35,196 nt of DNA, taken from the IMG/VR virus record IMGVR_UViG_3300035180_002101, positions 1 through 35,196 of that record; one strand, 5' to 3'. How positions within the stretch are numbered: position 1 is the stretch's first letter; each line of letters begins with the position of its first letter. Made by a program: the position numbers and the translations under genes. Under the pieces are notes generated by a model, which did not search any database, was not told where the DNA came from, and was given only the letters and a program-made list of their open reading frames with translations. This DNA comes from a virus. Positions 14,996 to 22,847 of this stretch are shown piece by piece.

Positions 14996-15269
14996 AGAAG
15001 AAATGATGAAGCAAGAAGAGCAAAAGCGTATTCAAGAACTACAACAGTATTTAGTAAGAGTGCAACAGATAAGGTTATTCATAGAGAAAATGGCAATACC
15101 TGTTTTGCTTTTAATTGTTAATACAGTATTGCTTATTATTACTGTTATCAATATAAGTTGGCAGAGGATAATAGTAATGAGCATTTTTGCGGTATTTTCG
15201 CTTATATTTTATATTTTAACAATTTATTTAGGAGGTTTTAAAGATGGCAGATCAAGAGATTCTCAATAA
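14982..15269 (+). CDS. Two-span membrane protein with cytoplasmic coiled coil
   Basis: A start at 14982 (95 aa) follows GGGGGTG. The first 35 residues are charged and helical (MSKEEMMKQEEQKRIQELQQ). Two hydrophobic spans follow (about 38-57, AIPVLLLIVNTVLLIITVIN; about 61-82, IIVMSIFAVFSLIFYILTI), with a short polar tail. The topology suits a small inner-membrane protein. Its position before the RNA gene and lysis block makes a holin or antiholin possible, but nothing diagnostic is visible. Confidence 0.65.
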   Translation: MRMSKEEMMKQEEQKRIQELQQYLVRVQQIRLFIEKMAIPVLLLIVNTVLLIITVINISWQRIIVMSIFAVFSLIFYILTIYLGGFKDGRSRDSQ

Positions 15270-15471
15270 AGACAACGAACACTTAATTGATATTGTTCTT
15301 GAGGCTAAACTGGGTTCAAAGTTTAGTGCATTAGAGAAGGATATTAAGGAAATAAAGGTTGAAGTAGGATATCTCAATTGTGCATTTAAAGATTTAAGAA
15401 AAGTTGGCATATTGTTGTTTGTGGGAGTAGCAACAGAAATTATTATAAAAGTATTACAAATCATACATTAA
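15244..15471 (+). CDS. Coiled-coil protein with C-terminal membrane anchor (XhlA-like)
   Basis: The 75-aa product has an N-terminal amphipathic coiled coil (about 10-50, FSALEKDIKEIKVEVGYLN) and one hydrophobic span near the end (about 54-72, VGILLFVGVATEIIIKVLQI). That is the layout of XhlA/BhlA-type lysis accessory proteins. It starts behind AGGAGG and overlaps the previous gene by 26 bases. Its stop is only three bases before promoter P4. Similarity to XhlA is in topology only. Confidence 0.6.
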   Translation: MADQEILNKDNEHLIDIVLEAKLGSKFSALEKDIKEIKVEVGYLNCAFKDLRKVGILLFVGVATEIIIKVLQIIH

Positions 15472-15474
15472 CAC

Positions 15475-15502
15475 TTGACTTTTTGTTAAAAGTGTGTATA
15501 TT
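15475..15502 (+). promoter_or_regulatory. Promoter P4 for the tmRNA-like RNA and lysis genes
   Basis: TTGACT (15475-15480), 16-base spacer ending in GTG, TATATT (15497-15502), the same layout as P1-P3. The expected start (7-8 bases past the -10) is 15509-15510, which coincides with the first base of the tmRNA-like acceptor stem. The RNA would need little or no 5' processing. Confidence 0.88.
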
Positions 15503-15509
15503 ATTATGT

Positions 15510-15590
15510 GGGGGAGCGAATGGTTTCGACAACAGGTAAAAGCCAAAGTGCATCTGTTGGATACGGGTTCAATTCCCGTTTCCTCCACCA
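15510..15590 (+). ncRNA. Miniature tmRNA: tRNA-like domain of tmRNA without tag reading frame or pseudoknots
   Basis: The 81-nt RNA folds as the tRNA-like end of tmRNA. The acceptor stem GGGGGAG (15510-15516) pairs with TTCCTCC (15580-15586); its third pair is G3-U70, the identity element read by alanyl-tRNA synthetase. The D-like segment (15517-15530) ends in GGTTTCGAC, matching the tmRNA 5' signature GGnUUCGAC. The T arm is ACGGG-TTCAATT-CCCGT (15563-15579), then A and an encoded CCA (15588-15590). Where a normal tmRNA has about 250-300 nt of tag frame and pseudoknots, there is only a 7-bp helix (15531-15537 with 15552-15558) and a 14-nt loop. No resume codon followed by a stop is present. 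Predicted to bind SmpB and EF-Tu and be alanylated; consequences for trans-translation are inferred. A relic of recombination at host ssrA is possible, but both ends are intact. Confidence 0.88.
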
Positions 15591-15607
15591 AGTAAAAAGA
15601 GGTGTTT

Positions 15608-15925
15608 ATGGAGTTGCAGAAGTTTGAAGAATATTCACATTTAGAAGATTTTCTAATTGATTATGGTTTTACAGAGCTAATATTGGAAAGTATTTTATCT
15701 TTGATAGAAAAGGAAGATTGGAAGGTTAATGATGTTGTAATAGATGGAATTTGTGTGAATGATAGAGAACTGGCATCGCAGCAAGTATTTGTAGAGACTT
15801 GGAACGAGCTTATAGAAACAGATATTGATGATGAAATGACACATTTATCGAACTACTTTTATTCGTTGTCTTACTTTTTGATTGTTATGATAGTGAAGGA
15901 ATTGAAAGAAAGGAATAATGATTGA
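15608..15925 (+). CDS. Unknown protein directly behind the tmRNA-like RNA
   Basis: A start at ATG 15608 (105 aa) lies behind AGAGGTG, 17 bases after the RNA's CCA. With no terminator between them it is transcribed from P4 with the RNA as its leader. The protein is acidic and helical (MELQKFEEYSHLEDFLIDYG, later ETWNELIETDIDDEM and a hydrophobic helix SYFLIVMIVKEL). It resembles the 85-aa product at 6523-6780. Function unknown. Its position makes it the best candidate partner of the RNA, though that is context only. Confidence 0.68.
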   Translation: MELQKFEEYSHLEDFLIDYGFTELILESILSLIEKEDWKVNDVVIDGICVNDRELASQQVFVETWNELIETDIDDEMTHLSNYFYSLSYFLIVMIVKELKERNND

Positions 15926-15947
15926 CTTTTTGCACAAGGAGGTGTTT

Positions 15948-16430
15948 ATGGATTGGAGTGAGTTTCAAAAGAATACCATAGAAGAGTGGATTTTAGCGGA
16001 AGAAGGTGGTTATGTGAATAATCCAAAAGACCCTGGTGGTGAAACAAAATACGGTATAAGTAAAAGGGCATATCCCAACATTGATATTGCAAAGCTGACT
16101 TTAGACCAAGCGTTGAATATTTATTACAATGCTTATTGGCAACCGTTAGGGTTAAGTAACTACCCGTTTCCTGTAGGGTTTGTATGCCTTGATTGTGCTA
16201 TACTATGTGGTCCGAGATGGATATCAAATGTAATGAAAAATGCTTATCTTGACCTTAAAAGTCAAGTTAAGAACTGGGATATATACACAATGTATATACT
16301 ACAGAAGAGGATTAGCTATCACACGGCTGATACTAATTTTAAAACATTTGGACAGGGTTGGTTAAATAGGGTTGCTAATTTAATGCAAGAGTATATTAGA
16401 TTAAAACCAATATTTGTGAAGGAGGGTTAG
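15948..16430 (+). CDS. Endolysin, GH108-type N-acetylmuramidase
   Basis: A start at ATG 15948 (160 aa) follows AGGAGG. Residues 19-39 hold the GH108 hallmark EGGY...DPGGETKYGIS, in which the Glu before GGY (E19) is the catalytic residue. The rest (QALNIYYNAYWQPLGLSNYP, then CLDCAILCGPRWISNVM) matches the helical body and the peptidoglycan-binding C-terminal part of this family. It cleaves the glycan backbone of peptidoglycan at lysis. There is no signal peptide, so release would depend on a holin. It is the centre of the lysis block that follows P4. The usual 'NSG'-type substrate motif appears changed (ILCGPRWIS). Confidence 0.9.
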   Translation: MDWSEFQKNTIEEWILAEEGGYVNNPKDPGGETKYGISKRAYPNIDIAKLTLDQALNIYYNAYWQPLGLSNYPFPVGFVCLDCAILCGPRWISNVMKNAYLDLKSQVKNWDIYTMYILQKRISYHTADTNFKTFGQGWLNRVANLMQEYIRLKPIFVKEG

Positions 16431-17722: not shown

Positions 17723-17997
17723 AATTAGCTAATGGTTTTATGTATGTAATAGAAGATGATGAACAACCGCCTGAAAATGGAATGATTAGTTATGTTTCAA
17801 ATGTTGTTGTTATTGACTACGATGAATCAAATGATTATTTACAGAGTTTAGGAATTAAAAAATGGAAAAGGATACAAGTATTACCGAACGGTTTGATAAC
17901 AACAGGGTTAACATATAACAAAAGAGAAGGTTTTAGTAAAAAGGTATATCATGTTGTTTTAGCGAAGTCTTCTGATATAGTAGGCGTATGCGATTAG
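17719..17997 (+). CDS. Possible GroES-fold protein, first of a tandem pair
   Basis: The 92-aa product starts with MKLANGFMYVIEDDEQPPEN and ends with KVYHVVLAKSSDIVGVCD, whose pattern (strand, then 'xxDIxGV') is like the C-terminal strand of co-chaperonin 10 proteins and of the next gene (INVDNIIGVYE). The middle is divergent (DYDESNDYLQSLGIKKWK). It is behind GAGGAGG and overlaps the holin candidate by four bases. Similarity is weak; it may simply be an unknown beta-rich protein. Confidence 0.4.
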   Translation: MKLANGFMYVIEDDEQPPENGMISYVSNVVVIDYDESNDYLQSLGIKKWKRIQVLPNGLITTGLTYNKREGFSKKVYHVVLAKSSDIVGVCD

Positions 17998-18007
17998 GAG
18001 GTGAGAA

Positions 18008-18271
18008 ATGAAATTAAGACCAGTGAATAATTGGATTATAGTTGAGGCTAAAGATTTAACGTATATTAATCATAGTGTAAAAGCTGACCTTTTAGAGGTG
18101 CCAGAGTATTTGGAATATGAATTCAAAAAGGGTGATAAGGTTTTAGTAGATTTAGTAGAGGCTATCTTATTAGAGGTTACTGAAAATAATAGTTATATTT
18201 TTGCAATTAATGTTGATAATATAATAGGCGTATACGAAAAAGAAGGAACCAAGCCACATATAGTAAACTAA
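18008..18271 (+). CDS. GroES-like co-chaperonin candidate
   Basis: The 87-aa product has the order of landmarks of a 10-kDa chaperonin. It starts MKLRPVNNWIIVEAKD (compare 'MxxRPLxDRVxVxxxE'), has a short possible mobile loop, then KKGDKVLVDLVEAILLEV (compare 'xxGDxVxF') and SYIFAINVDNIIGVYE (compare the terminal 'DILAxVE' strand). Phage co-chaperonins such as T4 gp31 replace host GroES to fold the capsid protein in GroEL. The loop is short and the classic Ile-Val-Leu-type tripeptide is not obvious. A strong terminator follows directly. Confidence 0.6.
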   Translation: MKLRPVNNWIIVEAKDLTYINHSVKADLLEVPEYLEYEFKKGDKVLVDLVEAILLEVTENNSYIFAINVDNIIGVYEKEGTKPHIVN

Positions 18272-18324: not shown

Positions 18325-19008
18325 GTGGGCAAAATAATTATAGATAAAAAAATATTGGAAGATTTGTATATTGTTAAAAAGATGACTATAGAAAAAATTT
18401 CTAAAAGTTTAGGAGTAAGTGGTTTCACTATTTATGAACGATTAAAAGAGTTTAATATAAAAATAAGACCAAAAACCGAAGCTTTTAAGGGTAAACATCA
18501 TTCTGAAGAAACTAAAAGAAAAATTAGTGAGTCCGAAAAAGGTAAGTATGTTTCAGAAGAGACCAGAGTGAAGATAAGTAAGTCAAGAAAAGGTAAAATG
18601 ACAGGCGAAAAAAATCACAATTATGGAAAACATTTGTCTGAAGAAGCCAGAAAGAAAATTAGTGAAGCCAAAAAAGGAACCTATCTTTCAGAAGAAACCA
18701 AAGCGAAAATGAGTAGGATACGAAAAGGTAAATTTAAAGGAGAAAAAAGTCCATATTGGAAAGGTGGTAAAAGGCTTGCAGAAGCAAGAATGAAATCAAA
18801 GAGGCGAAAATTAGGGTTTAACCCTTTAAATAAACCATTTAAAAATTCTGAAGGGCATCATTTACAAGATAAGGAAACGGTTGTTTATATTCCTAAAGAA
18901 ATACATCAAAGAATTTCTCATAATAATTGGAGAAATATTAATATGAATACAATAGATGCTTTAGCATTGTATTATTTAGAATTACAAATATTGGGAGAGG
19001 TGGTATGA
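18325..19008 (+). CDS. Homing endonuclease with NUMOD3-like repeats and His-rich nuclease end
   Basis: This 227-aa protein uses GTG at 18325. Residues 8-48 are an HTH (TIEKISKSLGVSGFTIYERL). Residues about 55-140 hold several copies of a 'HLSEETKxKISExxKGK' repeat, the NUMOD3 DNA-binding motif typical of phage homing endonucleases. The C-terminal domain has GHHL (177-180) and VVYIPKEIHQRISHN (186-200), a His-containing nuclease-like end seen in phage endonucleases of the HNH superfamily. It sits directly upstream of, and overlaps, the terminase gene. Such free-standing genes spread by cutting alleles lacking them. It is intact, with no frameshift. Confidence 0.85.
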   Translation: MGKIIIDKKILEDLYIVKKMTIEKISKSLGVSGFTIYERLKEFNIKIRPKTEAFKGKHHSEETKRKISESEKGKYVSEETRVKISKSRKGKMTGEKNHNYGKHLSEEARKKISEAKKGTYLSEETKAKMSRIRKGKFKGEKSPYWKGGKRLAEARMKSKRRKLGFNPLNKPFKNSEGHHLQDKETVVYIPKEIHQRISHNNWRNINMNTIDALALYYLELQILGEVV

Positions 19009-21412: not shown

Positions 21413-22131
21413 TAGAATTATTTATTGCTGATGTTCACCTGCCGTATCTTAATGAAAATGCGGTTGACATAATGATTGATTACATCAAGAAACAACGCAT
21501 TTACATTGAGACATTGGTATTAGGTGGGGATATAATGGATTTTGAGAGTGTCAGCTCATTCACGCATGACCCTGATAATTGGTCTTTGCAATCTGAAATT
21601 CCATTCTTATCGCAGTTTATAGAAAAGCTTGACAAAGCTTTCCACCCTATGAAAATCTATTACATTGAAGGTAATCACGAAAGAAGGTTAGAAAACTACA
21701 TCATCACCAAAGCACCTGCTTTGTATGGTATGATTACTATTCAAGATATGCTTGATAAGAAATATCAGATTGAGTATGTAGATAATTGGAAGTTAATGAC
21801 AAGTGGTTTAGCACCGTTAAAAATCAGGAAGCTATATCACCTTCATGGGCATGAATTGAAAATCGGCGGAAGAAAGAATATTGCTGAAAGAATATTAGGT
21901 GCAACACACGAAAATACCATTGTTGGTCATTGGCATAAGACCGATGAATATTTCTTTAGAACCATAGGCAATAAGGTTAAAGGGACTTGGGTTGTTGGTT
22001 GTATGGGACAAACATTTGTTAGCTATGACCCACACACAAACTGGAACAATGGTTTTGCAGTAATAGACTATCTTGAAAATGGGAATTTTAGAGTGGAGAA
22101 TTTGAAGATTATTGAGGGAGAAGTAATGTAA
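21409..22131 (+). CDS. Calcineurin-like metallophosphoesterase
   Basis: The 240-aa enzyme has the full metal-binding set: D8-x-H10 (ADVHLP), GGD with D41, GNHE with N89/H90, HGH at 146-148 and GHWH at 173-176. This gives two metal sites as in MPP-family phosphoesterases. It starts with GTG behind GGAGG and overlaps the previous gene by four bases. Related phage enzymes act on nucleic-acid ends or small phosphodiesters. The substrate here is unknown; its place after terminase suggests a role in DNA maturation or nucleotide handling. Confidence 0.92.
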   Translation: MIELFIADVHLPYLNENAVDIMIDYIKKQRIYIETLVLGGDIMDFESVSSFTHDPDNWSLQSEIPFLSQFIEKLDKAFHPMKIYYIEGNHERRLENYIITKAPALYGMITIQDMLDKKYQIEYVDNWKLMTSGLAPLKIRKLYHLHGHELKIGGRKNIAERILGATHENTIVGHWHKTDEYFFRTIGNKVKGTWVVGCMGQTFVSYDPHTNWNNGFAVIDYLENGNFRVENLKIIEGEVM

Positions 22132-22847
22132 TGAAAAAAATTAATATTAGTAAAGAAATATTAGAAAATTTATATATTAATAAAAAACTATCTTTAAAAG
22201 AAGTTGCTGAAAAATTCGGGGTAAGCTATCAAACTATTTCAAACAAATTAAAAGAATATGGTATACAAAGTAGAACTATAAGTGAAGCATTAAAAGGTGA
22301 AAAAAATGGTTTTTATGGGAAAAAACACACAGAGAATACTAAAATAAAAATAAGTGAAGCAAATTTAGGTAGACATCATTCAGAAGAAGCTAAAAGAAAA
22401 ATAAGTGAAGTATTAAAAGGTGAAAAACATCCAATGTATGGCAAACATCATTCTAAAGAAACTAAAAAGAAAATAAGTGAAACTAAATCGGGTAAACATT
22501 TATCTGAAGAAACTAAAAGAAAATTAAGTGAAGTAAAAAAAGGCAAAAAACACCCTAATTGGAAAGGATGTATCACACCAAAAAATACAAAAATAAGAAG
22601 TAGTTTAGAAATGAGATTATGGAAAAAAGCGGTTTTTGAAAGAGATAATTTTACTTGTCAAAAGTGTGGAAAAAAAGGTGGTGATTTACACGCTCACCAT
22701 ATAAATAATTTTGCCGATTTTCCTGAATTACGAGTAGCTATAGACAATGGAATTACTTTGTGTAAAGAATGTCATAAAGAATTTCACCGTTTATATGGAA
22801 AGAAGAATAATACAAGGAGTCAAATAGATGAATTTATTAAACATTAA
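22131..22847 (+). CDS. HNH homing endonuclease with HTH and NUMOD3-like repeats
   Basis: A 238-aa intact protein. Residues 8-48 are an HTH (SLKEVAEKFGVSYQTISNKL). Residues about 52-140 hold at least four 'HHSEExKxKISE' NUMOD3-type repeats. Residues 172-220 form the HNH domain with C176/C179, the catalytic HH at 189-190, C211/C214 and H215/H219. The nuclease part is closely similar to the one cut by the left window edge, and the HTH and repeats to the 18325 gene. It overlaps the metallophosphoesterase stop by one base. With the 18325 gene it brackets the packaging genes. Confidence 0.92.
   Translation: MKKINISKEILENLYINKKLSLKEVAEKFGVSYQTISNKLKEYGIQSRTISEALKGEKNGFYGKKHTENTKIKISEANLGRHHSEEAKRKISEVLKGEKHPMYGKHHSKETKKKISETKSGKHLSEETKRKLSEVKKGKKHPNWKGCITPKNTKIRSSLEMRLWKKAVFERDNFTCQKCGKKGGDLHAHHINNFADFPELRVAIDNGITLCKECHKEFHRLYGKKNNTRSQIDEFIKH

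Follow-up and report, generated by a model that had tools for sequence, protein, structure and literature searches.

We find that a 35,196-base virus record (IMGVR_UViG_3300035180_002101, analyzed over its full length and called the window here) carries what is best supported as a free-standing gene for a transfer-messenger RNA (tmRNA) that is reduced to its tRNA-like domain (TLD), with alanine identity and no tag reading frame. The complete TLD, 81 nucleotides (nt) long, can be read directly from the letters at 15510-15590 on the plus strand. Its identity is supported by a covariance-model match, by homologues and by covariation, and chance is excluded because a close homologue keeps all pairs and helix 2 co-varies strongly among relatives. 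Judged by sequence comparison, TLD-only tmRNAs (mini-tmRNAs hereafter) are a widespread, structure-conserved class. The kind itself is known from mycobacteriophage DS6A, and the new points are the breadth of the class and the conservation of its charging signal.

The Rfam tmRNA model, RF00023, matches 15510-15590 with exactly the same ends (55.8 bits, E 1.9e-19; cut-off 47 bits). The alignment spans model positions 1-374 with nearly the whole mRNA-like part deleted. RF00023 is the sole Rfam family detected in the window, and within its clan the best-scoring family for this RNA is tmRNA, not tRNA. The acceptor stem of 7 base pairs (bp), seen by direct reading and by RF00023 and recovered by our pattern scanner, joins GGGGGAG (15510-15516) to TTCCTCC (15580-15586) and contains G3-U70, with U70 at 15584, plus a second wobble, G7-U66. 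It is followed by a D-loop-like region (CGAATGGTTTCGAC, 15517-15530), aligned to the 5' part of RF00023, inside which lies the tmRNA signature (GGTTTCGAC, 15522-15530). Helix 2 pairs AACAGGT (15531-15537) with ATCTGTT (15552-15558) over 7 bp, as indicated by RF00023 and by covariation over 107 clusters, and encloses a 14-nt apical loop (AAAAGCCAAAGTGC, 15538-15551) where the pseudoknots and tag frame would be; the AA(n)CC word of this loop is common to about half of the longer relatives. A GGAT linker (15559-15562; GGAC in most relatives) leads to the T arm (ACGGG-TTCAATT-CCCGT, 15563-15579), which is found by both RF00023 and folding, and the RNA closes with the discriminator A73 and an encoded CCA tail (15587-15590; direct reading and RF00023). 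Both the GGNTTCGAC signature and the 5-bp T arm with a 7-nt loop that mark a tmRNA TLD are present. All three stems (acceptor, helix 2 and T) reappear on single-strand folding (z -2.43); the z-scores of single relatives are modest, and we left them out of the evidence.

What the window RNA lacks is equally distinctive. Only 14 nt separate the strands of helix 2, and there is therefore no space for a tag frame or a pseudoknot: we find no tag reading frame with a resume codon and stop, and no pseudoknot, not even PK1, the mRNA-like part of RF00023 being deleted in the alignment. The anticodon arm and D stem of a tRNA are absent as well. Nor is the RNA a permuted, two-piece tmRNA, the form that mitochondrial tmRNAs have, as it is one piece in normal order. 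ARAGORN reports 0 genes in the window, neither tRNA nor tmRNA, presumably because the program expects a full tmRNA. An initial annotation of the window had listed the same TLD elements (acceptor with G3-U70, GGTTTCGAC, helix 2, T arm and CCA) and had called the RNA a mini tmRNA that has alanine identity but lacks a tag frame. Both statements hold, the latter on the strength of the RF00023 match, the homologues and the covariation. A tmRNA covariance model, the kind of check that it had suggested, does recognize the RNA (55.8 bits against the cut-off of 47), and homologues that keep G3-U70 and the stems, whose absence it had named as counter-evidence, do exist.

A close homologue among these occupies the corresponding position in a related phage (L002:8473-8553 in IMGVR_UViG_3300035182_000918; 66.0 bits with RF00023), whose primase is 97% identical to that of the window phage. 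Five transitions are the only differences between the two 81-nt RNAs; every pair stays intact, and one of the changes converts G7-U66 to G7-C66. As the flanks are also 85-95% identical, this comparison alone is weak evidence of selection. In the same contig, 63,998 bases long, one primase region is present twice (L002 and L003), probably because the assembly ran past the end of a circular or redundant genome.

The wider class emerges from pattern and model searches. BLASTN with the 81-nt window RNA gave no match in phage records; RNAs this short, in which helix 2 is free to vary, call for pattern or model searches. A first pattern, built around TTCGAC and the T loop and leaving position 70 unconstrained, matched at least 119 viral stretches, from which a scanner that demands acceptor and T-stem pairing, and so removes many tRNAs, kept at least 56 distinct sequences, including those of the window and L002. 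Further pattern scans brought the total to at least 167 distinct scanner hits. Three of these lie in the tRNA-rich locus L194, and two of the three (99 and 74 nt) were judged to be chance; without them, the set forms at least 107 clusters at 85% identity. Mini-tmRNAs are 60-91 nt long without CCA and occur in viral contigs and in some Nostocales genomes, the survey of genome contigs being incomplete and weighted toward the Nostocales type, as its pattern took long D-loops only. They are sporadic in this order: the strict pattern matched 1 of its 149 genomes, namely the seed genome itself. A backwards control pattern had 0 matches in 149 bacterial genomes. An independent Rfam search detected an RNA of mini-tmRNA length in the 49 sampled records, 45 of which gave a match above the cut-off.

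Selection on structure shows in helix 2, whose pairing was not used to choose the sequences. With a single fixed register applied to the 107 cluster representatives, its pairs 1-6 form in 98, 97, 94, 86, 79 and 78%, compared with 41-52% after partner shuffling and 27-48% in registers shifted by one or two. Acceptor pairing was a scanner requirement, so that for pairs 4-69, 5-68 and 6-67 only the variety is informative: each shows five or six pair types among the representatives. Against this variation, G3-U70 is found in all 56 distinct sequences (45 clusters) among the matches listed from the set in which position 70 was free, and A73 is invariant over the same 45 clusters; later patterns fixed U70 and are excluded from this count. 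The sole sequence without G3-U70 among the at least 167 is one of the two rejected L194 hits. An unchanging wobble next to freely co-varying pairs points to recognition by alanyl-tRNA synthetase (AlaRS), which is the established role of G3-U70.

We give about even chances to the reading that the window RNA, once charged, behaves during infection as a dominant-negative decoy that uses host SmpB to compete with trans-translation. Under this proposal, RNase P would make the mature 81-nt RNA, with its CCA already encoded, and AlaRS would charge it via G3-U70. Host SmpB and EF-Tu-GTP would then bind it and bring it to ribosomes stalled at the ends of broken mRNAs, where it would rival host tmRNA in access to both SmpB and the stalled ribosomes while offering no resume codon, and the stalled chain would escape tagging for proteolysis. 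Charging is proposed because G3-U70 is invariant while the three neighboring pairs vary, and expression because a promoter-like site lies directly upstream and is kept in L002. Reliance on the SmpB of the host is proposed because SmpB (PF01668) was found in 0 of 49 mini-tmRNA-bearing records, many of them fragmentary, a control search having found it in 10 of 10 bacteria. AlaRS, EF-Tu and SmpB all bind at the TLD (PMC3929946, PMC3022190). Fragments of this domain suffice by themselves to bind SmpB, and there is a structure of a tmRNA fragment in complex with SmpB and EF-Tu on the ribosome (PMC3929946). The decoy or titrator role suggested in the initial annotation is plausible and has a published precedent: according to a passage of PMC4131195 that cites Mao et al. 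2009, a TLD-like molecule is a strong inhibitor of tmRNA whether or not it can be charged, and may act through titration of SmpB.

Several observations nevertheless weigh against such a decoy. In the same passage, inhibition by TLD molecules is independent of alanylation, and pure interference alone would therefore leave the invariance of G3-U70 unexplained. Furthermore, a 123.6-kb viral contig (G006) holds a mini-tmRNA together with a 392-nt tmRNA match (94.2 bits; L282:1501-1892), whose ARAGORN-predicted tag (SPEYRIRLLTNTKW) is atypical, and Nostocales genomes (L133-L158) have their own full ssrA plus a separate 81-nt mini-tmRNA. A mini-tmRNA beside a full tmRNA is odd if it only blocks trans-translation. 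The main alternative, a lesser but real possibility, is that the charged RNA and host SmpB take over the stalled peptide without a template: repeated rounds would add at least one alanine without mRNA, and the ribosome would be freed without an SsrA tag or an alanine tail would be left, making the RNA a translation helper under mRNA breakage, not an inhibitor. The conserved charging signal speaks for this alternative, as do the tRNA genes that lie within 500 nt in 37 of 194 viral loci and the cultured Streptomyces phages whose mini-tmRNA sits within a tRNA array, with an RNA ligase gene nearby, a translation-repair setting. There is also biochemical and natural precedent, in that SmpB and a TLD fragment support polyalanine synthesis without mRNA (PMC3929946, PMC3022190), while mitochondrial tmRNA, despite having no tag frame, is found together with SmpB and is believed to help with incomplete mRNAs (PMC11915505). 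However, the release route is not encoded, and the inhibition of host tmRNA in vivo by TLD-like molecules, as given in the passage of PMC4131195, runs counter to a helper. More doubtful is a general form of this idea, in which charged tmRNAs that carry no message would be common among phages and would perform, with host SmpB, mRNA-independent rescue or C-terminal alanine addition during infection. Kept by selection for AlaRS identity, this would be a mode of tmRNA action besides tagging and inhibition.

That the RNA merely binds SmpB (or AlaRS) and reduces its free level, with no need for alanine, seems unlikely: inhibition by chargeable and non-chargeable molecules alike, perhaps through titration of SmpB (the same passage of PMC4131195), would fit, but the invariance of G3-U70 and A73 over 45 clusters suggests selection for charging, unless SmpB binding, too, depends on these bases, and a conserved charging signal favors entry into the ribosome over plain titration. 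We consider it very unlikely that the tRNA-like fold serves in the processing or packaging of phage mRNA, with RNase P cleavage defining where the following gene's 5' end lies and aminoacylation being incidental. Several mini-tmRNAs do lie in late operons of head genes, flanked by the prohead protease gene and the major capsid gene, and we found no terminator near the window copy; other mini-tmRNAs, however, sit in tRNA arrays or alone with their own promoter-like site, and such an element would leave the invariant G3-U70 and the helix 2 stub unexplained. Finally, it is hardly credible that the RNA is a functionless frozen relic or attP-like copy of host ssrA, an origin that the initial annotation had raised and that our results disfavor. 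Although ssrA genes are common integration targets, attP typically holds just the 3' part of a gene, whereas the mini-tmRNAs keep both halves and all stems, with compensatory changes. The window record has no integrase (PF00589). A tyrosine integrase is present in 6 of 49 records but never within 3 kb of the mini-tmRNA, the shortest distance being ~3.3 kb.

The at least 107 clusters with conserved structure and alanine identity, some of them in phages that can be grown on laboratory Streptomyces hosts, suggest that many phages may use such RNAs to disturb ribosome rescue or to take control of it. These RNAs escape annotation, as ARAGORN does not report them. If trans-translation is indeed blocked or bypassed in this way, ribosome rescue would be a common target in phage-host conflict.

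In the window, the minus strand holds structural genes (head-tail adaptor, a 1665-amino acid (aa) transglycosylase-domain protein and tail protein), and the plus strand holds replication and lysis genes (beta clamp, exonuclease, primase-helicase and GH108 endolysin). The mini-tmRNA is preceded on the plus strand by a predicted sigma-70-like promoter at 15475-15502, consisting of TTGACT (15475-15480), a 16-nt spacer and TATATT (15497-15502), with 10 of 12 consensus matches. An alternative -10, TATTAT, lies at 15499-15504. The site stops 7 nt upstream of the mature 5' end with TATATT, or 5-7 nt when the alternative is included, and both the TTGACT and TATATT hexamers are identical in L002. The RNA gene lies between two small plus-strand open reading frames (ORFs) without family matches. 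The upstream one, taken from the ORF list, encodes 75 aa with a hydrophobic C-terminus (15244-15471) and is possibly lysis-related, judging by its position. The downstream one encodes 107 aa from a GTG (15602-15925), with a likelier ATG start at 15609 after an AGAGG-type ribosome-binding site. The endolysin follows on the same strand at 15918-16430 (glycosyl hydrolase 108, PF05838 at 8.7e-22; phrog_315 endolysin at 3.4e-31). Elsewhere in the window, two NUMOD3 proteins (18325-19008 and 22131-22847), one with a clear HNH domain, are free-standing homing-type endonucleases.

Among cultured phages, the Streptomyces phages LuckySocke, GiJojo, pSt2308 and BRock carry unannotated 78-nt mini-tmRNAs at the same place in their tRNA array, with RF00023 scores of 57.1, 57.4, 61.0 and 64.5 bits, respectively; the LuckySocke RNA lies at 17977-18054 of OR725497. 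The helix 2 sequence varies among LuckySocke, pSt2308 and BRock, and the GiJojo RNA falls within a predicted ORF. Phage Alone3 holds what looks, from its sequence, like a decayed copy. No universal partner gene was found among the neighbors of mini-tmRNAs, where only local recurrences are seen: the next-downstream protein matches phrog_10, a major head protein family, in 7 of 54; upstream neighbors include prohead protease and terminase; and one downstream protein family, with five members matching phrog_2554, is common to five cyanophage-like loci. A tRNA is absent from the fetched DNA of 143 of the 194 viral loci. On the Nostocales side, many of L133-L158 have a tRNA with a CTA (amber) anticodon, according to ARAGORN, ~75-170 nt downstream of the mini-tmRNA, and that of L140 is located in a tRNA array.

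Some candidates proved to be other RNAs. Cyanophages S-CAM1, S-SSM7 and S-CRM01 and crAss-like cr7_1, cr50_1 and cr130_1 appear mini-like by BLAST and actually have permuted tmRNAs. Those of the three Synechococcus phages (L290:1459-1727, L291:1461-1763 and L292:1463-1684, respectively; RF01851/RF04321) are unannotated, and in cr50_1 a RAGATH-22 RNA (L296:865-1031, 155.6 bits) precedes the permuted tmRNA by ~450 nt. Salinibacter phage M31CR41-3 was rejected because its tmRNA match is full-length (L278:2657-3032, 80 bits); the RNA is unannotated there and lies opposite a predicted hypothetical protein, on the other strand. A possible degenerate relative, also unannotated, is seen in Microbacterium phage Dismas and its relatives (L279 ~2420-2527), where a GGGCCTG...CAGGTCC acceptor has G3-U70 and GGTTCGCC replaces GGTTTCGAC.

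When compared to known systems, the window RNA shares with full-length RF00023 and phage tmRNAs the acceptor with G3-U70, GGTTTCGAC, the T arm, the start of helix 2 and the CCA, and differs in having no pseudoknots or tag frame and in its length of 81 nt versus ~350-400 nt. The initial annotation was wrong in taking known phage tmRNAs to be full-length, as DS6A is listed as having a "TLD only" tmRNA (PMC4131195; again in PMC11915505). The window RNA, a continuous, phage-encoded TLD without an mRNA-like domain, fits this description (PMC4131195): both genes are barely more than a TLD, and the same effect on tmRNA has been proposed. DS6A is, however, one published phage, compared here by description only, whereas the present class comprises at least 107 clusters from many unrelated phages. 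In the open-access literature that we searched, DS6A is the single TLD-only phage tmRNA found, and reports elsewhere are possible. Mitochondrial tmRNAs and the ~65-bp plastid tmRNAs of Mallomonadaceae, which lack a coding sequence (PMC11915505), also combine a TLD with the absence of a tag frame; these are organelle genes, and the mitochondrial ones are of the permuted form, unlike the continuous, normally ordered RNA of the window. The same design is seen in the engineered TLD RNA that binds SmpB in a crystal, made of 25 nt from the 5' part and 34 nt from the 3' part closed by UUCG (PMC3929946, PMC3022190). It is a laboratory construct, and the window RNA differs from it in having a 7-bp helix 2 and a 14-nt loop, while one natural mini-tmRNA (L017) caps its helix 2 with the very same UUCG (ATTAT-TTCG-ATAAT).
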